This document shows positions 32,394 to 54,139 of a stretch of 64,000 nucleotides of DNA, piece by piece. Location: positions 1 to 64,000 of the forward strand of contig NZ_SSMQ01000064.1 of NCBI RefSeq assembly GCF_005144585.1. Direction: 5' to 3'. Every line of letters starts with the position of its first letter. Position 1 is the first letter of the stretch. Origin of the DNA: Polyangium fumosum (lineage in GTDB: Bacteria > Myxococcota_A > Polyangia > Polyangiales > Polyangiaceae). The notes below the pieces were generated by a model. That model was given only the letters and a program-made list of their open reading frames with translations, did no database searches and was not told the origin of the DNA. The translations under genes and the position numbers were made by a program.

Positions 32394-35105
32394 TCAGGGG
32401 CAGCGCATCGCGCCTTCGAGCTTGCCGGTCTTCGCGCGGTAGACGAGGCCCGACTCGGCCGCGATACGTCGCTTCGGATCGAGGCAATACACGGCAAAAT
32501 CGACCGTGGCGTCGCCGGTCTCCGGATCGAAGTCGAGCGAGGTCTGCGAGCCCGTGAGGTCGATATTTTTACCGCCGCGCAGGACCCTGATCGCCGAGTA
32601 AATCCCGCCCTGGCCGACCTCGACCGGCTCGCCCGGGGGCACGAGGCGGCGCACGGCGCGCGCGAGGCCGCGGCCCGTGATCGGCTCGTCGCCGAGCGCG
32701 AGCGCGGCGTACGCGACGGCGTAAAACGCGTCGTACGGGGCGCTCGTCGAGTCGTACGGCGTGACCTTGTCCGGGAAGATCTCGTTGTGGTGCACGACGA
32801 ACTTCGCGAGCGCGGGGTTCATCGCGGCGTCGACGCTGAGCAGCCGGCGCGAGGCGTCGGGGCGCTCGGCGACGAGCTTGAGGAAGTCGTCGGACCCGAG
32901 CGAGCCCGACATGACGTAATGCGGCCGGAAGAAGAGGCTCTTCGGCCAGCGCCGTTCGAGCTCGACGAGGAACTGCGCGCCCGCGCCGGCCTCGAAGACG
33001 ACGTGCGGCGCAAACGTGCCGATCGACGTGATCAAGCTCGCGACAGCGTCCCCCGTCTGCGAACCGGCGAGCTCGTCCTTCACCACGAACTGGCGCAGGT
33101 CGTCGCCGTTCTCGGCGGCGCTCTTGCCGTTCCAGCGCAAGACCGAGAGGAGCTGGTCCGCGTGGCTCACGCCGGACGCATTGTCCACGCGGACGATGGC
33201 CACGCGCAGCGGCTCGCCGGGGCGGAGGATCCCGGGGCGCCTGCGAATCTCCGGTTCGAGCACATGTTCGAGGAACGCGGCCTTCGCGCCCGTCGACATG
33301 GTCGCGCTCGAGGTCACGCGCAAGACGAGGCGCGGATCGTCCGGCGCATGCGCGATGTCCGTGAGCATGGAGGCGGTGTTCGAGGCGAGCGCGAGCACGC
33401 CCTTCGGCAGGAAGTACGCCTGCGCGAGGTCGAGGACCTCCTTGCTACGCGCAAAGCCGAGGACCGCAGGGACACCGACGTCGTCGACGAGGTGCGACGC
33501 CGCGCGCTCGGCCGCCTCGGTGTCATCGCAGAGGACGATCCCGATCGGGCGAGGCTTGCCCGCGCCGCTCGCAGGCGGCAAGCCGCCCGTGAGGCCCGCA
33601 AAATCACGGCGGGCGAGGTCCACGGCGCGCGCCGCTTGCCGGCCGTACGTCGTGCCCTTCTTCTCGTCGTGCGGGTACATCGCGCCGATCCAGATCGTGC
33701 CGTCGTTCTCAACGTCGCCCGCCTCGGCGAGGACGCGGCACTGATCGGTCTCGAGCGTGACGCAAGCGCCGCGATCCTTGCGGCAGATGGCATGCTTGTC
33801 CCCACCCGGGGGCATGCAGTCGGCGTTCGTGACGCAGGCACTCCGCGGCGTCGGAGGCGGCGGGGCCTCGGTCGGCGCGGTGCGGCTGGCCCGCGCGACG
33901 AAGAGGACGACGAGCGTGGCGATCATGCCGAACCCCGCCGACATCATGAGCAGGGCCCGCGCCCGGGAAGGGCGCTCCTCGGTCGGGCTCGACGAGAGAG
34001 GCTCACTCACCGTGTTCTGCGGCGCGCCGTCGACAGGCGCAGCCGCCGGCGCGAGCGAGGGCGGGCGCGGCGTGCCCTCCTGTCCAGGAGGCACATCAAG
34101 CACCGTCTCGACGAGCTCAGCCCGCGGTCGCGAAGCGACGACGCGCCCCGAAGCAGGCTGAAGCGAGATACGCCCCGACGACGAAGGCGCAAACGCGAGA
34201 GAACTGCCGCTGTTGCGAGGAACGACGGAGAGAGGCTCGCCATACACCACGATGTGAGCCGAGCCGATCGCATCCCGCATCTCACGCGCATCCTCGAACC
34301 TGTCATGGCGCGAGTAAGCAAGGGCCTGGTCGATGACGCGGGCCACATCACGCGGAGCCTCGGGCGCGACATCCATGAGGCGCGGCGCAGGCTTGGTCGC
34401 CGTGCTCGTGAGGAGCTCCGTCGCGCGGCTCGCATCGTGCACGAGCCTGCCCGTGAGGAGCGTGAACATGGTCGCGCCCGCAGCCCAGAGGTCGGTGCGC
34501 GCATCGATGGCGCCCCGATCCCCAAGCGCCTGCTCAGGCGGCATGTACGCAGGGGTGCCCGCGACGCCGCCGGGCCCGCCCTCCTCGTCGGCGACGACCC
34601 GCGCGATGCCAAAGTCGAGGATCTTGAGGGTGCCGTCCGACGTGACGAACACGTTCTCCGGCTTGATGTCGCGATGCACGATGCCCTTGTCATGGGCCGC
34701 CGCAAGCGCATCGCAGAGCGCATGCCCGATGACGAGGACCTCACGGCAAGCAATCTTGCCGCCCGCGCGTCTCCGCCGCTGGTCGAGGGTCTCGCCCTCG
34801 AGCAACTCCATCACGAGGAAAGGGCACCCATCATCCGAGACGTCGTCATCAAGGACGCGCACAGCCCCCGGGTGCTCGATCGAGTTCGCGACGTACCCTT
34901 CACGAACGAAGCGATCCCGCTGGGTAACGCTGGCCGAGAGCTCCGGATGAAGGATCTTGACCGCCACCCGATGGCCGTTGCGATGAACCGCGAGGTACAC
35001 CGTCGCCATCCCACCCACACCAAGCACACGCTCGATGCGGTACTTGTCCCGGAGCGTTCTGCCGACACGACGTTCGGCGTGCTCTCGGGCGGAAGGCGGG
35101 GGCAT
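32394..35105 (-). CDS. Transmembrane Ser/Thr kinase with periplasmic-binding-protein-like sensor
   Basis: A 903-residue receptor-type kinase. The N-terminal Hanks kinase is intact: GVGGMATVYLAV glycine loop, K50 (VAVKIL), HRDIKPEN (144-151), DFGIARV (164-170) and GTPAYMPPEQ. One membrane helix (about 384-404) separates it from an extracytoplasmic region of about 480 residues. That region looks like a type I periplasmic binding fold of the LivJ class (IWIGAMYPHDEKKGTTYGRQ, RPIGIVLCDDTEAAERAASH, KGVLALASNTASM, FFRPHYVMSGSLGSDDFLK). Inference: extracellular amino acid or related ligand modulates kinase activity. Operon-like with the barrel and Ig-like genes downstream. Confidence 0.88.
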   Translation of the reverse strand: MPPPSAREHAERRVGRTLRDKYRIERVLGVGGMATVYLAVHRNGHRVAVKILHPELSASVTQRDRFVREGYVANSIEHPGAVRVLDDDVSDDGCPFLVMELLEGETLDQRRRRAGGKIACREVLVIGHALCDALAAAHDKGIVHRDIKPENVFVTSDGTLKILDFGIARVVADEEGGPGGVAGTPAYMPPEQALGDRGAIDARTDLWAAGATMFTLLTGRLVHDASRATELLTSTATKPAPRLMDVAPEAPRDVARVIDQALAYSRHDRFEDAREMRDAIGSAHIVVYGEPLSVVPRNSGSSLAFAPSSSGRISLQPASGRVVASRPRAELVETVLDVPPGQEGTPRPPSLAPAAAPVDGAPQNTVSEPLSSSPTEERPSRARALLMMSAGFGMIATLVVLFVARASRTAPTEAPPPPTPRSACVTNADCMPPGGDKHAICRKDRGACVTLETDQCRVLAEAGDVENDGTIWIGAMYPHDEKKGTTYGRQAARAVDLARRDFAGLTGGLPPASGAGKPRPIGIVLCDDTEAAERAASHLVDDVGVPAVLGFARSKEVLDLAQAYFLPKGVLALASNTASMLTDIAHAPDDPRLVLRVTSSATMSTGAKAAFLEHVLEPEIRRRPGILRPGEPLRVAIVRVDNASGVSHADQLLSVLRWNGKSAAENGDDLRQFVVKDELAGSQTGDAVASLITSIGTFAPHVVFEAGAGAQFLVELERRWPKSLFFRPHYVMSGSLGSDDFLKLVAERPDASRRLLSVDAAMNPALAKFVVHHNEIFPDKVTPYDSTSAPYDAFYAVAYAALALGDEPITGRGLARAVRRLVPPGEPVEVGQGGIYSAIRVLRGGKNIDLTGSQTSLDFDPETGDATVDFAVYCLDPKRRIAAESGLVYRAKTGKLEGAMRCP

Positions 35106-35225
35106 GGCGGAAAGGAGGATACCCGATCAGGGAATTTCCGGAACGGGAGGTTCGCCGCGATGCGCTACGTCGGTCCCGGCAAGCGGTTCTCCGCCTCACC
35201 AGGCCGGGGCTGGGGCGTCGCGCCG

Positions 35226-35343
35226 GGGCTGGGGCGTCGCGCCGGGGCGCTGCCCCGGACCCCGCGGGGGCTGTCCGCCCCTCGACCCGGACCAGGCACG
35301 GCCTGGACCGAGGGGGAAGAACTGCGCGATGCGCAGTTCTTCC
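35226..35343 (-). repeat. Composite hairpin repeat element, copy 3 (inverted orientation)
   Basis: Same element as at 554-659 but reverse-complemented: the hairpins come first, then the palindrome GGAAGAACTGCGC/GCGCAGTTCTTCC (35315-35343). A 19-bp unit (ggggctggggcgtcgcgcc) is duplicated in tandem at its left edge, starting near 35206. It lies between the kinase gene's start and the next copy. Confidence 0.85.
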
Positions 35344-35465
35344 CACGAGCCGGTGGCAAGACCACGGGGGTGGGTTTCAAGCCGGCGACGGGCACGCTGC
35401 CCGTTGAGCCCGCAGCGCCGCTGTCTTGGTTGGCAGGGTCGTGGAGGGTCTTGACCCCGGCTGTT

Positions 35466-35570
35466 CGATGAACTGCGCGGAGCGCAGTTCATCGTCCTGG
35501 GTCCAGCGCCTCGCTGGTCCGGGTCCCGGGGCGGACAGCCCCGGGTGGGGCCTGGGGCAAAGCCCCAGCG
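35466..35570 (+). repeat. Composite hairpin repeat element, copy 2
   Basis: Palindrome CGATGAACTGCGC/GCGCAGTTCATCG (35466-35494, loop GGA) followed by CCAGCG/CGCTGG, CGGGGC/GCCCCG and TGGGGC/GCCCCA hairpins. It ends 10 bp before the stop codon of the Mrr-like gene. The spacer between copies 3 and 2 shares short segments (TTGGTTGGCA, GTCTTGACC) with the spacer at 461-553, so the larger arrangement is duplicated too. Confidence 0.85.
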
Positions 35571-35579
35571 CGGCGCCCA

Positions 35580-36932
35580 TCAAGCAAGCTCGAGCAGGGT
35601 GTCCACGACCATCCATTTCGTGGTGCCGCTGGGTTTGCCTCGCTGGCATTTTGCGCTTGGGACCATGCGCCGCAGACAGGAGACGATGCTTTGGGCGATG
35701 GGCTCGACGACGGCGCCGATCATTTCCTGGGGGAGCTCGACGCGGATCAGGTGAATGCCGCTGCCGCGGTTCTGGTGGGCCACCTTGGTTCCGGCGATTT
35801 GGCGTTCGAGCTCCGGGAGACGTTGCAGCTCGTCGTAGATGCGATCCGTGACGGCTGTGTGTTCCCTTGGTTCGGGGGTGGGTGTGCTTGCGCGGAGGAG
35901 GTCGATGAGCGCCTCGCGGACTGTCATTCGGGCTTTGCCGAGGTACTTCATCACGAGCTCGATGAGCTCGCCCCTCGCGATCACGCGAATGTCGAGGCCG
36001 AGTCGGCCTTCGAGGGCGGCGCACTTTTCCTCGAATCCGTTGCTCGTCGCTTCGGCGGTCGTCACGATCACGCCTGCGTCGATCTTGTGCAGCTCCTTGG
36101 CTTGCTCGATTTGATCGAGCGTGCGCTCGTCGTCGTGCAGCCCGTCGTTTTGCTTGATCTGGACGGCGACTTTGTATTCGAGGCCCAGCGGATCGCGCGT
36201 GTAGACGATGAGATCCGTGCCTCTCTCGCCGGCGCCGCCCCAATGCTCGACGCGCCCGCCCTCGTAGATGCACATGAACAGGTGATGCACGAGGTGCGCG
36301 AGCTCGTTGCCCTTGTACTTCGTCAGGATGTGCTTCCACGCCGCGTCGCGGACCGCCGTGAAGAACCCTTCGGCTTTTTGCGTCTCCGGGTCCGGCGTCC
36401 ACGTATCCTTGCCGGACTCGATCGCGTGGACGAGCGCCTCCACCGTGGAGCCGAGCGCGTCGATCGACCACATCCTCGACGGGTTTCGCATCGTCGCGCG
36501 CAGCTCTGCGTCGACGTGCGTGTTCTCCGCCTCCACGCTGGCGACCTTCCCGGCGGGCGTGCGGATGGGATCCACGGCGATGATATGGCCGTAATCGGGG
36601 CCCTCCCGCCCGGGCGCCACGATGGGCGCGTACTCGTATGCGCCCTTCACGCGTGCGAGGGCCCATCGGCCTTGATCGAGCAGGTTTGGCAGGATGAGCA
36701 CGTTGCCTGGCTTCAGGCCGTCGGGCTCGGTGTCGAGCAGGCGCCGGTTTCGCCAGACGCTCGCTTCCTCCTCGCTCAGCTTTTTTCCTGCGCGCACCTG
36801 GTCGCGCAGGAGCCGCAGATCGTGCTCGCGTCGCCACCCGAAGCCCTGGCGCAGGCGGCCCTGCTCGAGCTCGCGGGTGAGGAACGCGCGCTGCGTGCGA
36901 TCGGTGCGAAGGACGAGGTAGCGGCGGGGCAT
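35580..36932 (-). CDS. Mrr-like restriction endonuclease
   Basis: A 450-residue protein with a central Mrr_cat (PD-(D/E)xK) fold. Helix NELAHLVHHLFMCIYEGG (209-226) leads into RVEHWGGAGERGTDLIVY with D240, then the VAVQIKQ strand with the Q258-x-K260 signature, and ends with AGVIVTTAEATSNGFEEKC. Mrr enzymes cut foreign, often methylated, DNA. The N-terminal 130 residues (LKPGNVLILPNLLDQGRWALARV..DYGHIIAVD) may be a DNA- or modification-reading domain of PUA/EVE type; that is a guess. No methyltransferase is adjacent, which fits a modification-dependent enzyme. It is flanked downstream by two hairpin elements. Confidence 0.8.
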   Translation of the reverse strand: MPRRYLVLRTDRTQRAFLTRELEQGRLRQGFGWRREHDLRLLRDQVRAGKKLSEEEASVWRNRRLLDTEPDGLKPGNVLILPNLLDQGRWALARVKGAYEYAPIVAPGREGPDYGHIIAVDPIRTPAGKVASVEAENTHVDAELRATMRNPSRMWSIDALGSTVEALVHAIESGKDTWTPDPETQKAEGFFTAVRDAAWKHILTKYKGNELAHLVHHLFMCIYEGGRVEHWGGAGERGTDLIVYTRDPLGLEYKVAVQIKQNDGLHDDERTLDQIEQAKELHKIDAGVIVTTAEATSNGFEEKCAALEGRLGLDIRVIARGELIELVMKYLGKARMTVREALIDLLRASTPTPEPREHTAVTDRIYDELQRLPELERQIAGTKVAHQNRGSGIHLIRVELPQEMIGAVVEPIAQSIVSCLRRMVPSAKCQRGKPSGTTKWMVVDTLLELA

Positions 36933-37054
36933 GGGGAGAACCGAGGCTCGGTGAGCGGGATGGGGATCCCGGTGAGCGTCTGCCCTTTGACGTTACCATG
37001 CGTGCCGGTGCGGGTGGGACGGCTTGTCACGCGGGATGGGTTCGCCGTCGACCC

Positions 37055-37819
37055 TCAAGCGCGCGCGCGGGCTCGGTGCTCGCGGAACAGGCGCGCCCCG
37101 AACTTTCCTGCGGGCAGCTCTTGCCAGGCGCGTATGTGCGCGGCGGGCTCCTGCGGCAGCATCTCGATCGGGAAGAGCGGCGCGCCGTACTCCGGCGGGG
37201 CCAGGACCACCGCCGCGAGGCTCGCGAAGGTGATGTCCGCCATCGTGAGCGCGTCGCCCACCAGGAACGATCGACCGTCCTCGATCTTCTTGCCGACCTC
37301 GGCGAACATCGCCTCGATCTTGCGGAGCGAGCGCGCGGCGCCCTCGGGCGTGATGCGCATGGCCTTGCGCATCACCGGGCGGACCACGGGGAAGAACAAG
37401 GGGAGCAGGCGTTTCTCCAGCGCCGGCGCGTGTTGCTTGTTCGAGAGGTGGAGCACGAGGTCGCGATCCGGCAGCATGTGGAAGTACATCCATCGCCGGG
37501 TGTGCGGCCCGAAATGCTCGTCGAAGTGCTCTTCGAGCGTCTCGACCTCCCGGCGCTCGGCGTCGTTCGTCCCGTAGAGCCGCGCCCCCGGCGCTCTTCG
37601 ATCGGCCCACTTCGCGATGTCCGTCGAGTCGTTGATCGCGCCCTCGTCCGTGATGAGCGCAGGCACGCTGCGATACCCGCCCGCGCGGCGCACGGCGAGC
37701 ATGTGGAATGCGGGCAGGTGCCCGGACTCGCGGTAGGGGATGCCCGCGTGATCGAGCGTCCACCGCGCCTTCTCGCAGTAGTGGCTGAACGTGATCGTCA
37801 CGAGCTGGGGGGGTTGCAT
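37055..37819 (-). CDS. Glutathione S-transferase-like protein
   Basis: A 254-residue protein with the thioredoxin-fold N-terminus of GSTs. ITFSHYCEKARWTLDHAGIPY has a Ser/Cys active-site neighbourhood, SVPALITDEGAINDSTDI contains the cis-Pro and glutathione-binding Asp-Ser-Thr, and the C-terminal helical domain has FLVGDALTMADITFASL with the N-capping Asp. Starts at 37819 or 37840 are both possible; the shorter is used here. It diverges from the ferritin-like gene with only 27 bp between start codons, so their promoters must overlap the coding ends. Confidence 0.82.
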   Translation of the reverse strand: MQPPQLVTITFSHYCEKARWTLDHAGIPYRESGHLPAFHMLAVRRAGGYRSVPALITDEGAINDSTDIAKWADRRAPGARLYGTNDAERREVETLEEHFDEHFGPHTRRWMYFHMLPDRDLVLHLSNKQHAPALEKRLLPLFFPVVRPVMRKAMRITPEGAARSLRKIEAMFAEVGKKIEDGRSFLVGDALTMADITFASLAAVVLAPPEYGAPLFPIEMLPQEPAAHIRAWQELPAGKFGARLFREHRARARA

Positions 37820-37846
37820 GCGCGCTTCGTCATGTATCATGCGCCC

Positions 37847-39031
37847 ATGGACAGCTCGCTTATCTTTCGGAGAACACTCGTATACCGCGTCGCGGCCACG
37901 CTCGGCGTCACGCTCGCCGCGCCTGTCGCGTTCGTCGGCTGCGGCGCCAAGGTCGTCGTCGACAGCGAGTCCACGGGCGCAGGCGGCGCAGGCGGCGCAG
38001 GCGGCACGAGCAGCACGAACTCGACGACGGACGCGACGTCGAGCTCCACGGGCACGACGGCGTGCGAGGGCACGGGACCGCTCACGTCGTTCCTCGCCTG
38101 CTTCCCTTCGACGGGCCTGACCTGCCCCCCGACGAACGAGGCCCACGGCGCCATCGCGGAGAGCCTCGACATCTGCTCCTGCCTGCACTCGGTCGACGCC
38201 GGCCCGAAGCCCGATCCGAGCGGCAATGGCTTCTGCTGTTACGACACCACGATCGAGACCACGTGCGCCATCGGGCGACCGCTCCGCGCCGAGGACGGCC
38301 CCGCCGTCGCGCCCGTCGAGGCCACGCGGCGAGGTTGGTCCGACGAGCCACTCGCGCCCAACGTCGAAGGCCTCTCCGCCGAAGCACGCGAGGTGCTCGC
38401 CGAGCGCTGGATCCGCGACGGCCTCTTCGAGCACGCCTCGGTCGCCGCCTTCTCGCGCCTCGCCCTCGTGCTGCTCGCGCACGGGGCCGACGAATCCCTC
38501 GTCCGGGCCGCACACGAAGCCGCGCTCGACGAGGTACGGCACGCCCGGCTCTCCCTCTCGCTGGCAGCCGCCTACCGCGGCGCGCCCGTCGCACCCCGAG
38601 GTTTGCCCGAGGCGCTCTCCCTCCCACTCGACGAGGGCCTCCGGGAGCTCGCAGTCTCCACCGTGATCGAGGGCGCCGTGGGCGAGACGCTCGCAGCCGT
38701 GCTCGCAGCCGAGCAAGCCGAGCGCGCATCAGACCCCGCCGTGCGCCGCGTCCTCGCAAGCATCGCAGAGGACGAAGCGCGCCACGCAGAACTCGCATTC
38801 CGCATCATCTCCTTCACGATCGCCGCAGGCGGGGCCCCCGTGCGCGACGCCGTCGCGCGAGCGTTTCGCGACGCCGCGGGCCGCCTGCCGCCGCCGCCCG
38901 CGGAGCCGCAGCTCGCGCCCGCCGTGGCTGCGGCGCATGGCCACGTGCCCTGCGCGGACGCCCGTGCCGCGTTCGTCCGGGCAATGGACGAGGTCGTCAT
39001 GCCGCTCGGCCGCGCGCTCGTGGAAGCGTGA
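37847..39031 (+). CDS. Ferritin-like-domain lipoprotein
   Basis: A 394-residue exported protein. The signal and lipobox (VAFVGC) are followed by a Gly/Ala and Ser/Thr linker (GAGGAGGAGGTSST). A Cys-rich segment comes next (CEGTGPL..CFPSTGLTC..CSCLHS..GFCCYD..TTCAIG), then a four-helix ferritin-like domain (about 180-394). Probable di-metal ligands are in FEHASVAAFSR, ALDEVRHARLS, EGAVGETLAA and AEDEARHAELAFR. An envelope-anchored iron or redox role is likely. Starts at 37832 (MYHAPM) or 37847 are in the same frame. A composite hairpin repeat begins at the stop codon. Confidence 0.8.
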   Translation: MDSSLIFRRTLVYRVAATLGVTLAAPVAFVGCGAKVVVDSESTGAGGAGGAGGTSSTNSTTDATSSSTGTTACEGTGPLTSFLACFPSTGLTCPPTNEAHGAIAESLDICSCLHSVDAGPKPDPSGNGFCCYDTTIETTCAIGRPLRAEDGPAVAPVEATRRGWSDEPLAPNVEGLSAEAREVLAERWIRDGLFEHASVAAFSRLALVLLAHGADESLVRAAHEAALDEVRHARLSLSLAAAYRGAPVAPRGLPEALSLPLDEGLRELAVSTVIEGAVGETLAAVLAAEQAERASDPAVRRVLASIAEDEARHAELAFRIISFTIAAGGAPVRDAVARAFRDAAGRLPPPPAEPQLAPAVAAAHGHVPCADARAAFVRAMDEVVMPLGRALVEA

Positions 39032-39146
39032 GGCGTCGCGCCGGGGCGCTGCCCCGGTCCCCGCGGGGGGCTGTCCGCCTCCTCGACCCCGGACCAGGCA
39101 CGGCCTGGACCGAAAGTGGAAGAACTGCGCGGTGCGCAGTTCATCG
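39032..39146 (-). repeat. Composite hairpin repeat element, copy 4 (inverted orientation)
   Basis: It starts directly after the TGA of the ferritin-like gene. Hairpins CGGGGC/GCCCCG and CCAGGC/GCCTGG precede the palindrome GGAAGAACTGCGC/GCGCAGTTCATCG (39118-39146), which has two mismatches at the outer stem. Position right after a stop suggests transcription termination or mRNA 3'-end protection. Confidence 0.85.
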
Positions 39147-39483
39147 ACCCCGGGTCCGGTAGTGGCTAGATCCGGCCACAAGGCGAAAGTGGCGGGACAT
39201 TCGCCCGGCCACTATCTCCGGGCTCGTTGTCTGGAAAGAGGGAGAACTGCCCGCGCTCGTCGGCCAGGGGTCCGGCGTACGCGGCCTCCGCGGGAGCGGG
39301 CGTCGCGGGCCTGGGGAGATGGGACATCATGCCGCGCGTGACCTTCGCCCTTGCCCCCGCCGACCAGGCGCAGGAAGCCGCACCCGTTGGGAGTTCCCGC
39401 GGCGGGCTTTCCGGCTTCCCTGGTCGTGGGAAGGCAGTAGACTTACCGGCACGCTTGGACTAGAGCGCTCGTTCAGCATCGCT
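39147..39483. other. Gap before the PIN/AAA+ operon
   Basis: No convincing gene. It contains a nested inverted repeat (39156-39226) in which ccggccac/gtggcggg pair around aaggcgaaa and the outer tagtggc/gccacta arms match. The remainder should hold the promoter of the three-gene operon, but I could not assign -35/-10 boxes. Base composition begins to fall in GC towards the operon. Confidence 0.4.
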
Positions 39484-39834
39484 ATGGCCTCTTCTCCTCT
39501 TCGTCTATCCCTCATCGAGCCCTCCGGCCAGTCTCGTTCTCGGCTTCTACGCGGACTGGATTCGGAGATGCCCGTGCCCGTGCCCGAGTGGGTCAAAACG
39601 CATGTTCAGGCCAAGGAATGGCAAGGGGAACGGCTTGCCATCGAAGGCTTGTCTCGTGCCGCGGAAGAACTTGAGGGGCAGCTTCCTCGAATGGAAAGGT
39701 TGGATTTGATGCGTTGGCTATGGAACGAGAATGAGGTGGCGGTGGACATCGATCCTGCGCTGCTCTTTCTCGTCCTGGCTAGGGATCTGCGTGATCTCGG
39801 CATTGGTGGCGATCTGGAGATCGGGGGACTTTGA
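39484..39834 (+). CDS. Small protein, first gene of the PIN/AAA+ operon
   Basis: A 116-residue soluble, acidic, mostly helical protein (MASSPLRLSLIEPSG start). Segments RLAIEGLSRAAEELEGQLPR and LDLMRWLWNENEVAVDIDP suggest an alpha-helical interaction domain. No family recognised. The stop lies 3 nt before the ATG of the PIN gene, so the two are co-translated. Its composition is less GC-rich than the flanking chromosome, like the two genes after it. It may be a toxin-neutralising or adaptor component, but that is only inference from position. Confidence 0.6.
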   Translation: MASSPLRLSLIEPSGQSRSRLLRGLDSEMPVPVPEWVKTHVQAKEWQGERLAIEGLSRAAEELEGQLPRMERLDLMRWLWNENEVAVDIDPALLFLVLARDLRDLGIGGDLEIGGL

Positions 39835-39837
39835 ACG

Positions 39838-41850
39838 ATGCAAGGCGATTCAGAGGGTCCGATTGACGCATTGAGGGGCACGTTCCGCATTGGCTCCCGG
39901 GTGAAGCGAGGGGCGAGGGAGGACTGGCTCGAACTCGGTACTCTTCGTGTCTTCCCATCGCGGGCGGGCGATCAGGACGTGGCAAATGGGCAGTGGGTAT
40001 TGTCCATTGCGGCGGATCGGGACGGTAATCACCGCGAACGATTTTTTATCGAGGTGGCGAGCCGCTTGGGGCTACTACCCGTGCGCTTTACTCAATCTTT
40101 CGAAGAAATTCTTCGTAGAGATAACCCTCTTTGCATTGTCGCTGATACGAATACGCTGTATCATGGCACGCTGGCCCAAGCGCTTCGTGTGCGTGAGGGT
40201 CGAGCGACCCATGTGGCCATCGCAGATGTCGCGATGATGGAGATGCAACGGCAGAGGGAGAGGGCATGGACTCCCTCCGGAAGCGGGAAGAAGCAACAAG
40301 CAGAAGGCACCTCGGCGATACCCGAAGCATCGGCGAATGAGCCATCCATTAACGAGCACTGGTCAAGGGCCGCGGACCGTTCCCGGTTTCTTGCAACCGG
40401 CGGGCGAACGCTCGAGAGACTGCGCAAGGCTGGCCACGTCGTGCATGTGGCACGGCCGCAAGCTGCCATGGTACGGTATTTCGGCGGTAGCCGAGATACC
40501 GCGGACGAGGACGATGGGGGAGGAGATGGGGATACCGTAGGGAGTAACCTTTTACGGGATCGTCTCATTCTGGAAGCTGCGTTTCAGCAGCGGATCAATC
40601 TTCCGGGCGTCCAGCTCGTGCTTCTCACGGATGACGCTCTTCTCGCAGAACAGGCGAAGATAGAAGGCTTGACGGTAGGATTTGGCTGGCTAACCAACAC
40701 GATTCGGCCGCGCTTTCTGACGTCTCCGTATATCGATCCACGCACGTTGGAGCTGAAGCACGTTCCTCTTCGTGATTTCATCGACGAACTCGTGTGGTCG
40801 TGCTCCGTCCTGACACTTCAGCGAGAGAACGAGGGAAATCTCCTCGTGGGCCGTGTGCCCGAAGAGAGGCGCGAGCGCGTATTGGCCGCCATGGGCGAGC
40901 AAGGGTTCAAGGTCCGGTGGAGCAACCAGAGCACGAATGAGATCTGGGAGCCAAGTATCTTCAGCGCTGACTCTGTAAGAACTGAACGTACGGAGGAACA
41001 TTCACTTGCCAAAGGTGGTACCGTCGCAACGGTGCCGAAAAAATCGCCATCTGCGTTGAGGCTCCTCGAAAGAGTCCTTTTATGGCTGGCGGGCGCGGAA
41101 TCGGTGGCAAGCAAAGGATGGAAAGCTGAAGAAGGACAGGTGACGGACGCCTACCTGGAGGCGCTTGGCTGGTTGGCGGCTCAAGAAGGAGAGAAGGCTT
41201 TAACGGAACGCGGCCGGGCTCTCGCTTCCCGTTGGCAGCGCTTGGACCCCAAGAACGTTCAGGGCTGGGTCGATTGGATGTTGGATGCAGGGGCAGATCT
41301 CGATCGACTCGCTCCGGTGCGTGCTACCTTGAGAGTGGTGGAGACGCAGCCCGGAATTACGGATACGAGGCTCGCAAAGCTGACCGGAGATTCCGACCGC
41401 ACCTTGAGCGCTCAGATGAACCTCGCTGCTGCGTTCGGCCGTGCCATTCGGCTCAGCGCAAAGAATTGGACGGGGGCGTCATGGACAGATGAGGACGCAG
41501 AGCAAGCCATCCTTCGAGGAATCGAAACGTCCGAGGCAGCGTCATCCTCGGGGCTTCGTTCGGTCCTCGCGGCGCGCCTGTTTACGTCCTTTCTGCCGGA
41601 GAAGCCTATGTCACTGCCGGTCTTTCGTGCTGCGCTCAATCGTCTACGAGGTGCGGGGCGCCTTCGATTCACCGGCTCATCGCCTGAGGAAGTCGGCGTG
41701 AAGATTCGGGTACTCGAGCCCATGCGGGAAGACCCTTACGTGGCGGTTCGAGAAGTCGATCTCGGACGTGGTGACTTTCTTCTACCCGGAGTTCCATGCG
41801 TCGTGGTTGAGCCCGCCGACAGCCCTCGTACGAAACAGGAGGGAGCATGA
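39838..41850 (+). CDS. PIN-domain nuclease with C-terminal winged helices
   Basis: A 670-residue protein. A PIN-type ribonuclease fold spans about 97-283: D103 in CIVADTNTLYHG, E135 in MMEMQRQ, D241 in RDRLILEAA and D265/D266 in VLLTDDALLAEQAKIEGL form the expected acidic metal site. A Gly/Asp-rich loop (about 214-236) interrupts it. The C-terminal half has several winged-helix-like segments (QVTDAYLEALGWLAAQEGEKALTER, QPGITDTRLAKLTGDSDRTLSAQM, MSLPVFRAALNRLRGAGRLRF). The last codons overlap the ATPase start as ATGA. It is not a typical VapC (about 130 residues), and I know no named system with this architecture. Confidence 0.75.
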   Translation: MQGDSEGPIDALRGTFRIGSRVKRGAREDWLELGTLRVFPSRAGDQDVANGQWVLSIAADRDGNHRERFFIEVASRLGLLPVRFTQSFEEILRRDNPLCIVADTNTLYHGTLAQALRVREGRATHVAIADVAMMEMQRQRERAWTPSGSGKKQQAEGTSAIPEASANEPSINEHWSRAADRSRFLATGGRTLERLRKAGHVVHVARPQAAMVRYFGGSRDTADEDDGGGDGDTVGSNLLRDRLILEAAFQQRINLPGVQLVLLTDDALLAEQAKIEGLTVGFGWLTNTIRPRFLTSPYIDPRTLELKHVPLRDFIDELVWSCSVLTLQRENEGNLLVGRVPEERRERVLAAMGEQGFKVRWSNQSTNEIWEPSIFSADSVRTERTEEHSLAKGGTVATVPKKSPSALRLLERVLLWLAGAESVASKGWKAEEGQVTDAYLEALGWLAAQEGEKALTERGRALASRWQRLDPKNVQGWVDWMLDAGADLDRLAPVRATLRVVETQPGITDTRLAKLTGDSDRTLSAQMNLAAAFGRAIRLSAKNWTGASWTDEDAEQAILRGIETSEAASSSGLRSVLAARLFTSFLPEKPMSLPVFRAALNRLRGAGRLRFTGSSPEEVGVKIRVLEPMREDPYVAVREVDLGRGDFLLPGVPCVVVEPADSPRTKQEGA

Positions 41851-45992: not shown

Positions 45993-46943
45993 ATGTCGTT
46001 GGATGGGCCTTTCTTTTCACGTCGCGCGGTTCTCCTCACGCCCCTCGTCCTCGCCGCGGGCTGCGAGCGCGAGCCGAAGGGACCCAAAAAGGCCCGGTTC
46101 GTGATCGGGATGTCGCAATGCAACCTCGGCGAGCCCTGGCGCGTGCAGATGAACGCCGACATCGCGGCCGCGGCCAAGGAGCACCCCGGCATCGAGGTCG
46201 TCTTCAAGGACGCGCAAAACGACACGCTCAAGCAGCGGGCGCACGTGGAAGAGCTCGTCGCGGCGAAGGTCGACGTGCTCTTCGTGAGCCCCAAGGAGGC
46301 CCAGCCGCTCACCGAGCCGATCGGCAAAGCGTTTGATGCGGGCCTGCCTGTCCTCGTGCTCGATCGGGCCGTGCTCGGGGAGCGGTACACGACGTTCATC
46401 GGCGCGGACAACAAGAAGATTGGCCGCGCGGCGGGCGAATGGACCAAAAAGGTGCTCGGCGGCAAGGGCAAGGTCGTCGAGCTGAAGGGGCTCATGACGT
46501 CGACGCCGGGGCAGGACCGGAGCGCGGGGTTCCGCGAGGCGCTCGCGGGGTCCGAGATCGAGATCGCGTTCGAGGCCGACATGAAATGGCTCGAACCCGA
46601 GGCGCGCAAGGAGATGGATTCGGCGCTCGCGCGGCTGCCGAAGATCGACCTCGTCTACGCGCACAACGATCCGGGCGCGCACGGCGCCTACCTCGCGGCG
46701 CGGGCGGCGGGCCGCGAGAAGGAGATGAAGTTCGTGGGGATCGACGCGTTGCCCCACGAGGGCGTGAGCTACGTGGAGCAGGGGATCCTGGACGCGACGT
46801 TCCAGTATCCGACGGGCGGGCGCGAGGCGGTGGACACGGCGCTGCGGATCTTGAAGGGGGAGTCCGTGCCGAAGACGATCACGCTGGGATCACGCCGGTT
46901 CACGAAGGACGACGTGAAGAAGGGCGGCGAGCGCATCGAGTGA
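45993..46943 (+). CDS. Sugar-binding lipoprotein (RbsB-like)
   Basis: A 316-residue extracytoplasmic binding protein for the ABC importer. The signal VLLTPLVLAAGC has a lipobox, so it is membrane-tethered rather than free. The type I periplasmic fold shows FVIGMSQCNLGEPWRVQMN, VDVLFVSPKEAQPLTEPI, LPVLVLDRAVLGERYTTFIG, TPGQDRSAGFREAL and IDLVYAHNDPGAHGAYLAA. It lies 36 bp after the permease. The operon order ATPase, permease, binding protein has no repressor or catabolic enzyme next to it, so the sugar is not deducible. Confidence 0.92.
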   Translation: MSLDGPFFSRRAVLLTPLVLAAGCEREPKGPKKARFVIGMSQCNLGEPWRVQMNADIAAAAKEHPGIEVVFKDAQNDTLKQRAHVEELVAAKVDVLFVSPKEAQPLTEPIGKAFDAGLPVLVLDRAVLGERYTTFIGADNKKIGRAAGEWTKKVLGGKGKVVELKGLMTSTPGQDRSAGFREALAGSEIEIAFEADMKWLEPEARKEMDSALARLPKIDLVYAHNDPGAHGAYLAARAAGREKEMKFVGIDALPHEGVSYVEQGILDATFQYPTGGREAVDTALRILKGESVPKTITLGSRRFTKDDVKKGGERIE

Positions 46944-46999
46944 CGCCGCGGGGGGCGGGGGTGGGGCGCGGGGATCACGCGTGCCTTCCCATGCCCGCC

Positions 47000-47455
47000 G
47001 GGCTCGTCGGCAACGGCTGGGGGCTCCGTCGGCATGCTCGCCGCGCTTGTCGGCAACGGCTGGGGGCTTTGTCGACAGGGTCGCCGTGGTTGCCGGCGAC
47101 GGTCGGGGACTTCGTCGACATGCTCGCTGAGCTTGCCGGCAACGGCTGGGGGCTTTGTCGACAGGGTCGCCGGGCTTGCCGGCATCGGCTGGGGTCTTTG
47201 TCGGCAGGGTCGCCGGGCTTGCTGGCAACGGCTGGGGGCTTTGTCGACAGGGTCGCCGTGGTTGCCGGCATCGGCTGGGGTCTTTGTCGAGATGCTCGCC
47301 GCGCTTGCCGGCAACGGCTGGGGTCTTTGTCGAGATGCTCGCCGCGCTTGCCGGCAACGGCTGGGGGCTTTGTCGACATGCTCGCCGTGGTTGCCGGCAA
47401 CGGTCGGGGTCGTTGTCGACGTGCTCGCCGCGCTTGTCGGCAACGGCTGGGGGCC
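47000..47455. repeat. 43-bp tandem repeat array, 11 units
   Basis: The core caacggctgg, or its variants catcggctgg, cgacggtcgg and caacggtcgg, begins at 47011, 47054, 47097, 47140, 47183, 47226, 47269, 47312, 47355, 47398 and 47441. That is exactly 43 bp every time. Units vary in discrete blocks (tttgtcgac/tttgtcgag, agggtcgcc/atgctcgcc, gtggtt/cgcgctt/gggctt). Since 43 is not a multiple of three, the open frames through it are artefacts. No unique spacers, so not CRISPR. It lies after the ABC transporter operon. Confidence 0.95.
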
Positions 47456-47466
47456 GGGCATTCGAG

Positions 47467-47527
47467 TGTGACGCCCGCGGGACACTGTCACACCCGCATG
47501 ACGGACCTCTGTCACGCCCGCATGACA
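47467..47527. promoter_or_regulatory. Three related 17-bp boxes, possible operator
   Basis: Related 17-mers at 47467 (tgtgacgcccgcgggac), 47486 (tgtcacacccgcatgac) and 47510 (tgtcacgcccgcatgac). The last extends to TGTCA-N8-TGACA, a dyad of the kind bound by dimeric regulators. They sit 175-235 bp upstream of the small secreted protein gene. Function inferred only. Confidence 0.35.
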
Positions 47528-52348: not shown

Positions 52349-54139
52349 GTGTGCTTCGGTTTTCTCGCCAATTCACTCGGTTGTGAGCTCATCGCCGCGG
52401 TCGATCGGAGCCAAATCGAGAACTCGGGTGGCGCCGGCGGAGCGACGAGCGCCTCGTCCTCCAGCAGCAGCGGCACCGGCGGCAGCGGCGGCATCGGCGG
52501 CGGCAGCGTGGAATGCATGGTCCCGGCCGACTGTCCCGGCATGGACGACGCCTGCCAGACCCGCACCTGCGCGCAGGGGAAGTGCGGCCTCGACTTCGCC
52601 CCGGCCGACACCGCGCTGCCCGCGCAGACTGCAGGGGACTGCAAGAAAGCCGTGTGCGACGGCAACGGCGCCACCATCTCCCAGAACGACGACACCGATC
52701 TGCCCGACGACAGCAAGCCCTGCACCGACGACGTATGCACGGCCGGCGTCCCCTCCAACCCGAACAAGGCCCAGGGCACAACTTGTGGTGCTGGCCTCGT
52801 GTGCGACGCGAACGGCGCCTGCATCGGCTGCAACACCGCGGCCGATTGTCCCGGCACGGACGACGAATGCAAGGTGCGCACGTGCACCGCAGGCATGTGT
52901 GGTGCGGCGTTCACCGCGGCGAACACCCCGGTGGCAGCGCAGACCGCGGGCGACTGCGTGACAGCGGTGTGTGATGGCAGTGGCAACATCATCGCCACCC
53001 CCACCGACACCGATCTCCCGCCCGACGATAACAACGCCTGCACCGACGAAGTCTGCACGGCCGGCGTGCCGAGCTACCCGAACAAGGCCGACAACACGGG
53101 CTGCGACGACGGCAACGCGTGCACCGTGGCGGATACCTGCCAGGCCGGCGCCTGCACGAGCGGAGCCCCGATGGTGTGCACCGCGCTCGATCAATGCCAT
53201 GCGGCCGGCACCTGCGACACGAGCACGGGGATGTGCTCGAACCCCGTGCAGGCCGACGGCTTCGCGTGCAGCGACGGCGACGGCTGCACCACGGGCGACA
53301 CCTGCCAGAACGCTGTTTGCACCGCGGGCCCTCCGCTCGTCTGCGGCACGGGCACGAGCTGCGTCAATGGAGCGTGCGTCTACCCGGCCTGCACCGGGAC
53401 GAACCAGTTCACCGGGTCGACCTTGCCCGCTGGCACGTCTCCCCGATCGATCGCGGCGCTCGATCTGAATGGCGACGGCAAGACCGACCTCGCCACCGCG
53501 AACTTCGGCGCGACCAGCGCGAGCGTGTTCCTTGGCAATGGCGACGGCACCTTCGCCGCCAAGACCGACTTCCCCGTGGGCGGGGGCCCCGGCGTTGTCG
53601 TGGCGATGGACCTGAATGGCGACGGCATGCCCGACCTCGCCATCCCGACCCAGGCTGACGCGGGCGTCAATGTCCTGCTCAACACGGGGAACGGTACCTT
53701 CGGCGCCAAGGTCAACTACCCCACGGGCGCAACGGCCTTCTCGGTCGCAGCGCTGGACCTGAACGGCGACGGCATGCCCGACCTCGCTGTTACAAACGCG
53801 AGCGCGAACACGGTGAGCGTGCTTCTCAACAACGGCGACGGCACCTTCGCCGCCAAGGTCGACTATCCCGCGGGTGCAGGACCGGCCGGCGTCGTGGCGC
53901 GGGATTTCAATGGCGACAACAAGCTCGATCTCGCCGTCTCGAGCGTTTCCACCTCCACCGTGGGCCTGTTTCTCAACAACGGCGACGGCACCTTCGCCGC
54001 CAGGGTCAACTACCCCACGGGCGCTCTCTCCTACAGCCTCGTGGCGTCCGATCTGAACGGCGACAGCATGCCCGACCTCGCGACAGCGAACGCGAGCGGC
54101 AACTCCGTGAGCGTGTTGCTCACGACGTGCGTCCCGTAG
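52349..54139 (+). CDS. FG-GAP/VCBS-repeat lipoprotein, signal peptide apparently frameshifted
   Basis: Surface protein of 596 residues as read from GTG 52349. A Gly/Ser linker is followed by about 300 residues of Cys-rich repeats (ADCPGMDDACQTRTC, TDDVCTAGVPS, CTVADTCQAGACTSG). At least five FG-GAP blades follow, each with a calcium motif such as LDLNGDGKTDLA or RDFNGDNKLDLA. The GTG start leaves a truncated signal (CFGFLANSLGC). An ATG at 52323 in another frame encodes MNRASRLL; joining it with one extra base near 52345-52349 would give a full lipoprotein signal. So there is a 1-nt deletion, a sequencing error, or translational slippage. Confidence 0.75.
   Translation: MCFGFLANSLGCELIAAVDRSQIENSGGAGGATSASSSSSSGTGGSGGIGGGSVECMVPADCPGMDDACQTRTCAQGKCGLDFAPADTALPAQTAGDCKKAVCDGNGATISQNDDTDLPDDSKPCTDDVCTAGVPSNPNKAQGTTCGAGLVCDANGACIGCNTAADCPGTDDECKVRTCTAGMCGAAFTAANTPVAAQTAGDCVTAVCDGSGNIIATPTDTDLPPDDNNACTDEVCTAGVPSYPNKADNTGCDDGNACTVADTCQAGACTSGAPMVCTALDQCHAAGTCDTSTGMCSNPVQADGFACSDGDGCTTGDTCQNAVCTAGPPLVCGTGTSCVNGACVYPACTGTNQFTGSTLPAGTSPRSIAALDLNGDGKTDLATANFGATSASVFLGNGDGTFAAKTDFPVGGGPGVVVAMDLNGDGMPDLAIPTQADAGVNVLLNTGNGTFGAKVNYPTGATAFSVAALDLNGDGMPDLAVTNASANTVSVLLNNGDGTFAAKVDYPAGAGPAGVVARDFNGDNKLDLAVSSVSTSTVGLFLNNGDGTFAARVNYPTGALSYSLVASDLNGDSMPDLATANASGNSVSVLLTTCVP

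Follow-up and report, generated by a model that had tools for sequence, protein, structure and literature searches.

A mosaic of hairpins and palindromes dispersed near gene 3' ends in Polyangium

What kind of genetic element is a chain of GC-rich hairpins that recurs, in both orientations and near the ends of genes, in a myxobacterial genome, and how did it come to be there? The question is raised by the first 64,000 nucleotides of contig NZ_SSMQ01000064.1 of Polyangium fumosum (assembly GCF_005144585.1), hereafter the window, which lies on contig C161 of a source genome of 12.98 Mb in 201 contigs. The sequence-only reading of this stretch reported composite hairpin elements at 554-659, 35226-35343, 35466-35570, and 39032-39146 and a lone palindrome at 432-460, and offered as candidates mobile palindromes resembling repetitive extragenic palindromes (REPs) or bacterial interspersed mosaic elements (BIMEs), transcription terminators, or RNA 3'-end structures. 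All of these copies are present, and the element is more extensive than was noted. It is real, abundant, structured, and clade-specific, being restricted to the genus Polyangium within the order searched, and it is probably a non-autonomous, gene-free, BIME-like mosaic DNA element that has been spread or shuffled via a folded single strand and is tolerated at gene 3' ends.

The palindrome sequence GAACTGCGCNNNGCGCAGTTC occurs with up to three mismatches at five sites in the window, against 0.10 expected, and none of 100 shuffles reached five. Two of the reported copies, 35226-35343 and 35466-35570, are the two inverted halves of one unit of approximately 345 bp, their 90-nt arms being 78% complementary, so that what had been listed as a second and a third element is a single object. 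Read inward, each half of about 105 nt consists of three GC hairpins followed by a 29-bp palindrome, in the order H3, H2, H1, and P. H3 has the form GCYGGGGCnnnGCCCCRG or GCCGGGGTTTCACCCCGG, H2 is GGGGCTGTCCGCCCC, H1 is CCAG..CTGG with a variable inner stem, and P usually has GAACTGCGC arms. Full units are gene-free, with the halves facing each other around a centre of mostly 80-120 bp, and end outwardly in a conserved GGCGYNGCG. Conservation falls approximately 11-14 bases outside the GGGG of H3, which places the window unit at about 35233-35577, with outer limits uncertain by a few bases; the fold z-score for 35215-35590 is -12.3. Its left half, of the palindrome type called beta (35241-35346, plus strand), comprises H3 at 35241-35258, H2 at 35266-35281, H1 at 35287-35309, and P at 35312-35346, and a covariance model of the H3-H2-H1 module matches 35241-35309 with 73.5 bits, this sequence being within the model's own training set. 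A centre of about 119 bp (35347-35465) separates this palindrome from that of the right, alpha half, which carries the same chain on the minus strand (35466-35569; module match 35500-35569, 77.4 bits, likewise part of the model). The claim that hairpin order is kept under inversion thus stands for the window unit; beyond it, 84 halves were recovered from 1.26 Mb of P. fumosum sequence by a search that itself demanded H3- or H2-like bases, H1, and P in that order and left halves of any other order uncounted. One of these (C11 78183) is probably a chance match, and a stricter parse keeps 82 of the 84, as 33 full units and 16 single halves.

Copies are numerous throughout the genus. The palindrome core is found at 248 exact sites in the P. 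fumosum genome (reversed-pattern control, 0) and at 37-480 sites in each of six Polyangium genomes, five of which have at least 177 and one 37; further copies, which the sequence-only reading had proposed to look for, therefore exist in both the genome and its relatives. Outside the genus, the core was met at one site, in one of the 177 further genomes from the order that were searched. Matches to the H1 hairpin pattern number 58-394 per genome in all six Polyangium genomes and 1-2 in three of the 177 others, the reversed control giving single matches in 7 of 183 genomes. Under stricter filters, and with scoring limited to 52 candidates per genome, the covariance model found matches in both Polyangium genomes drawn and in none of 94 others. 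It recognizes 86 modules in the 1.262 Mb of P. fumosum sequence from which units and modules were counted, or roughly 900 per genome, provided the sample is representative; the spread is uneven, with one module in 220 kb of contig C11 and 15 in 120 kb of C66. A scan of named genomes, which may not include that of P. fumosum itself, found at least 97 stretches, and among the 80 loci listed (L060-L139) 75 belong to Polyangium, the other five being one site each in unrelated organisms; these five were removed before dimers, positions, and gaps were counted. Densities in relatives are biased by the choice of these 80 loci, which were taken because they carry the palindrome. No similar DNA was found in plasmid and phage collections.

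Two observations concern where copies lie along replicons and contigs. In the relative G148, dnaA is located at 11.65 Mb of contig C1 (13,235,919 bp), which puts the antipode near 5.0 Mb if C1 is circular. Among 170 H1-pattern matches on this contig, 6 lie before 3.3 Mb, 69 at 5.0-6.32 Mb, and the last 70 beyond 6.32 Mb, and the best unit matches fall at 3.1-9.5 Mb; the half of the replicon facing away from the origin seems rich in the repeat. In P. fumosum, palindromes stand a few hundred bases from the ends of contigs C3, C4, C7, C16, C21, C32, and C54, and the repeat may break short-read assemblies.

The modules are exchangeable, and the element is a mosaic. The same H3-H2-H1 chain bears at least four palindrome families (GAACTGCGC, GAAACCGCGC, GCATCGACC, and CGACAGCGCGC), and the way in which palindromes are paired within units follows a rule. 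Thirty of the 33 P. fumosum units combine an alpha with a beta half; one is alpha with alpha, across a 551-bp spacer, and two belong to other families. Among 70 units in relatives, 65 pair alpha with a non-alpha half. Across all sequence examined, 136 distinct facing pairs were found, and their palindrome arms differ in 131. Where the arms are identical, in five pairs, the spacers measure 396, 551, 660, 1075, and 1164 bp, whereas only 2 of the 131 different-arm pairs exceed 300 bp; when three loci chosen for long spacers are omitted, four identical pairs remain, all of at least 396 bp, and none of 129 different-arm pairs exceeds 300 bp. A frame encoding a hydrolase domain lies within the 1164-bp pair, whose two halves probably do not belong together. 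In PMC3733652 (Di Nocera et al. 2013), the avoidance of identical halves by REPs is described as having no obvious explanation and hairpin cleavage is proposed; the heterodimer pattern seen here fits the loss of close perfect inverted repeats offered there for REP heterodimers. As a separate observation, a second family joins the common chain to a palindrome of the form TGCATCGACCGC..GCGGTCGATGCA (L204:12721-12823, L041:9516-9619, L207 near 7848, and other P. fumosum halves), and all six P. fumosum copies of it are single halves.

Orthologous intergenic sites vary between species in the presence, subtype, and orientation of the element. Five relatives (G148-G152) were compared with seven P. 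fumosum units on contig C22 wherever flanks aligned. The site at 107587 is occupied in all five, by another subtype or the opposite orientation in G148, G149, and G151, a similar unit in G150, and one half in G152. The unit at 111949 is shared with G148 while the other four sites are empty. At 133753, G148 has a single half of a different palindrome family and the other four have nothing; at 135035, none is present in G149 and G152 and a single half in G150, G148 and G151 being seen only as ends of longer unrelated stretches. At 138136, a lone H3-like hairpin stands in G148 and nothing in G151 and G152; at 147355, G151 has a full unit of a different subtype, and G148, G149, and G152 have none; at 129059, the stretches compared in G148 and G150 have none. 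Similar differences occur in the window: the unit at 35233 is matched in type and orientation in G148, is replaced by an expanded alpha-alpha form in G150 and by the opposite orientation in G151, and is missing in G149, while G152 has other genes there. The copy at 39032 is absent from the stretches compared in G148 and G149, and full units of other subtypes occur in G150 and G151; that at 551 is absent from the G148 stretch compared. At the 147355 site of G148 and G152, an unrelated hairpin of CCCCTCTCCC..GGGAGAGGGG type replaces the unit, as if different hairpins competed for convergent gaps.

The compensatory stem changes anticipated by the sequence-only reading were found. In 44 halves picked for diversity, the structure pairs 95.2% of cells against 86.5% in shuffled data, with two-sided changes at 19 of 38 pairs; none of 500 shuffles reached either value, and sliding the partner by 1-3 columns lowers pairing to 32-46%. 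This structure includes a crossing (pseudoknot) helix, in which the H2 loop (TCC, TTC, or CGC) pairs with the bases before the CCAG of H1 (GGA, GAA, or GCG). In the window's left half, covariation and the sequence position it to TCC at 35274-35276 and GGA at 35289-35291 of the plus strand. The helix is matched in 253 of 254 halves (205, 47, and 1 for the three combinations) in one parse and in all 239 parsed of 244 in another, the two overlapping in data; at first, 16 of 244 H2 loops could not be parsed and one row did not match, figures that tighter parses reduced to 5 of 244 unparsed and the one mismatch in 254. A TCC half is combined with a TTC half in 40 of 124 distinct units, which makes the helix a within-half constraint, and the GAA form keeps the crossing pair while placing an A opposite C in the alternative extension of H1 that GGA permits. 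Nearly all of the variation is nonetheless a single C-to-T/G-to-A change in halves that share ancestry, which calls for caution.

Whether the folded strand matters as DNA or as RNA can be approached through stem positions that have decayed. A set of 283 halves, gathered from sites with at most three departures from the core, gives 3679 palindrome pairs, of which 3576 are Watson-Crick, of several pair types; the rest are 20 G-U, 20 A-C, and 63 others. Selection on a sense-strand RNA should leave more G-U than A-C. That the two are equal points to decay of copies, once formed, under no strand-specific constraint, and to well-paired templates as the source of new ones. An excess of G-U as a sign of RNA selection was thus looked for and rejected at 20 versus 20.

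Position relative to genes is the third property to be explained. Gene models came from a purpose-written, unpublished codon-usage caller whose stops are better than its starts; in the window, it overlooked the minus-strand gene 36993-37763 and let the gene ending at 39031 run back across that region, which makes its gene starts unreliable. Counts cover 81 outer ends in P. fumosum, contig-edge ends without a neighbouring gene being omitted. Sixty-one of the 81 face a gene 3' end (44% of random intergenic points do so); 52 lie within 40 bp of one (null 7%), bearing out the suggested relation to stop codons, and a single end is that close to a 5' end (null 10%). Of 167 outer ends in relatives, 138 are directed at a 3' end, 117 of them no more than 40 bp away, and four are near a 5' end. 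Occupied gaps in P. fumosum are convergent in 25 cases, tandem in 16, and divergent in 4, against 7.4, 23.6, and 14.0 expected by free bases, and in the biased sample of relatives 56, 21, and 5 against 13.4, 50.7, and 17.9. Single halves point H3 toward the gene 3' end in 12 of 15 cases in P. fumosum and 21 of 31 in relatives. Besides the element, occupied convergent gaps have a median length of 54.5 bp in P. fumosum (24 gaps) and 37.5 bp in relatives (56 gaps), and empty ones 33 and 34 bp, respectively; length-weighted random insertion would prefer longer gaps (null median distance 217 bp). Within the window, the copy at 39032-39146 begins directly after the TGA at 39029-39031, as had been noted, and the copy lying 10 bp from a stop is the third (35466-35570, by the stop at 35580-35582 of a minus-strand gene) and not the second as had been claimed. 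A fixed stop-codon target is unsupported, since TGAGC is nearly equally common behind element-linked genes (16.3% of 184) and at other gene ends (13.3% of 1446). In the same two sets, TAG makes up 31.5% versus 18.0% of stops and TAA 3.3% versus 9.8%. Sixteen of 251 halves have an outer TCTCAT upstream of H3, in some cases as TGAGCATGGGTCTCAT.

These properties can be brought together if copies are spread, or swapped by recombination, in the form of DNA by way of a folded single strand that some enzyme would recognize; such a route would account for near-perfect stems in most copies and for the lack of strand preference among decayed stem positions. Insertions would then survive where they are least harmful, in short gaps between gene ends, and identical halves lying close together would be eliminated as long, perfect inverted repeats. 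Transcription from either side would present a strong series of hairpins to RNA polymerase right after the stop, and both 3' ends may be protected or defined in this way. Several points weigh against this reading. Neither a mobilizing enzyme nor a target-site duplication, a precise empty site, or an autonomous relative was found in the tests run, so that movement is inferred from differences between species, part of which replacement by recombination between copies could yield. Convergent gaps are short, an insertion into them lies near stop codons anyway, and this explains much of the closeness to stops. The absence of strand preference is a result of 40 mismatches only, further pair types show no excess over shuffles (28 versus 28.9), and the two-sided changes, nearly without one-sided intermediates, may reflect a few ancestral events that were block-copied instead of continuing selection. 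A bolder form of the proposal, which we put forward tentatively as a possibility, is a new class of non-autonomous mobile element in bacteria: some enzyme that is not a REP-associated tyrosine transposase (RAYT) would recognize its ends as a pseudoknotted array of hairpins, in single-stranded DNA or in RNA, its alpha/beta heterodimer would be obligatory, and its movement would in the same act supply Polyangium genes with exchangeable 3'-end cassettes.

The strongest alternative, which we judge rather unlikely, is that the element is kept by selection as a bidirectional 3'-end RNA element, a hairpin terminator, RNA-stability, or insulator module between convergent genes. The closeness of outer ends to gene 3' ends, the enrichment of convergent gaps, the direction of single halves, the crossing helix as the mark of a folded single strand, and the presence of unrelated hairpins at an equivalent site in some relatives are all as expected of such a module, and to this extent the suggestion of RNA 3'-end structures agrees with position and pseudoknot. 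However, G-U and A-C mismatches are equal, relatives have no unit at many orthologous sites, and only 25 of 161 convergent gene pairs in P. fumosum are occupied. As for transcription terminators, positions 34500-40000 contain no canonical T-tract intrinsic terminator (shuffles mean 2.9).

Membership of a true REP or REPIN (REP doublet) family moved by a RAYT, a transposase of the Y1 HUH type, would fit the anatomy, copy number, inverted dimers, and location, which are as for the REPs in the available passages of PMC3733652, but is improbable. The Y1_Tnp domain PF01797, for which Escherichia coli and four other control genomes score, is found in three of the six Polyangium genomes and is absent from G148, G149, and G150, the genomes with 177, 183, and 431 copies; the RAYT profile NF047646 scores above its cut-off in none of the six, with weak sub-cut-off matches in three, so the gene that the sequence-only reading had suggested looking for did not appear. 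The PF01797 match in P. fumosum is a 142-aa IS200-like TnpA with no units in its flanks; in G151 and G152, the hits of the two profiles comprise one more full-length domain (G152) besides fragments and matches below threshold, and no unit lies within the flank of about 1-1.5 kb examined around these Y1-type matches. The tags of REPs are likewise rare at the palindrome foot, with GTAG within 8 nt in 1 of 239 cases and CGTC in 2 of 239; in the 12 bases before the GGGG of H3, CGTC occurs in 49 of 251 halves and GTAG in 23 of 251. About equally improbable is a miniature inverted-repeat transposable element that stems from a DDE insertion sequence. The long, imperfect inverted repeats at the termini, the conserved outer end, and genus-wide amplification would suit it, but 102 units, at every boundary tried (offsets 6-17, the boundary being uncertain by a few bases), give no excess of 2-9 bp target-site duplications over shuffled pairing, and within the sequence sample nine pairs of facing halves separated by 430-5000 bp enclose no transposase by Pfam, four of them holding a coding-like frame (one without a Pfam match, one with a haloacid-dehalogenase hydrolase, and two with sub-cut-off matches, to Tox-REase-9 and to a beta-propeller repeat).

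The remaining copies in the window were also counted as separate elements by the sequence-only reading and are better described as parts of units. The copy at 39032-39146 is a single degraded half (39040-39145, plus strand; 62.9 bits, part of the model) with a hybrid palindrome, its left arm of beta type (GGAAGAAC) and its right arm of alpha type (GTTCATCG); such a hybrid would result if a deletion joined one palindrome of a full unit to the other. An alpha half occupies 551-658 on the minus strand (84.7 bits, part of the model), and the lone palindrome at 432-460, with one mismatch to the core, is probably the remnant of its partner, so that the two would form one unit minus the outer hairpins of one side. 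A tandem duplication of about 19 bp at 35213-35232 (plus strand), read from the sequence, repeats the outer end of the left half of the 35233 unit. Neighbouring genes encode, by Pfam, an outer membrane efflux protein (885-2240), a protein kinase (32394-35105), an Mrr-like restriction endonuclease (35580-36932), and a Rubrerythrin-like protein (37847-39031); the gene at 36993-37763 has no Pfam match. Other repeats in the window are three tandem copies at 146-342, to the left of the first element copy (64-bp spacing, 93-99% alike), and arrays at 46910-47511 (43-bp spacing, 10 copies in register) and 53426-54089 (147 bp, 4 copies). Rfam gave no match in the window above its gathering score. The element is not described among the best literature matches for Polyangium or myxobacterial palindromic repeats, mostly papers outside subscription, nor are pseudoknotted interspersed bacterial repeats among the best matches for that subject; the repeat passages available from PMC3696898 concern clustered regularly interspaced short palindromic repeats and a reference title only.

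The element provides a large natural data set on why bacterial inverted-repeat dimers commonly avoid identical halves and on how REP-like repeats without a RAYT spread. The contrast between close heterodimers and widely spaced homodimers opens the explanation by hairpin cleavage (SbcCD-type) to direct laboratory test, and the crossing helix is a testable sign that a folded single strand matters beyond the DNA palindrome.

Among known repeats, REPINs are replicating units of two inverted palindromes around a spacer; they are much smaller and are tied to a RAYT, neither of which holds for the Polyangium element. The BIMEs of E. coli, a species that has a RAYT, are mosaics of alternating, non-identical, and oppositely oriented palindromes (Y and Z REPs), with sequences and modules that differ from those described here. 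Two general marks of REPs and BIMEs, more than approximately 100 extragenic palindrome copies per genome and palindromes alternating in orientation with spacers, are both present in Polyangium, whereas the GTAG/CGTC super-family tag at the palindrome foot is not characteristic of it. The element is accordingly BIME-like in kind, as the sequence-only reading had supposed, and differs between species as mobile palindromes might, but by the tests made it does not belong to the REP/RAYT system. The closest description is that of PMC3733652, whose available passages portray high-copy, extragenic palindromes in inverted dimers with two-sided stem variants, many families of which favour heterodimers over homodimers, and which lie between convergent and unidirectional genes, most convergent ones in the two species plotted being within 20 bp of both 3' ends. 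The REPs of those passages are stem-loops of 20-40 bp tagged by GTAG or CGTC, whereas the Polyangium half strings four hairpins together, contains a crossing helix, and has an untagged foot, and their frequent GT pairing is read as a sign of use as RNA, whereas G-U equals A-C in Polyangium. In having no RAYT that could be found, the Polyangium element resembles the CGTC REPs, which are likewise described there as being without a dedicated transposase.

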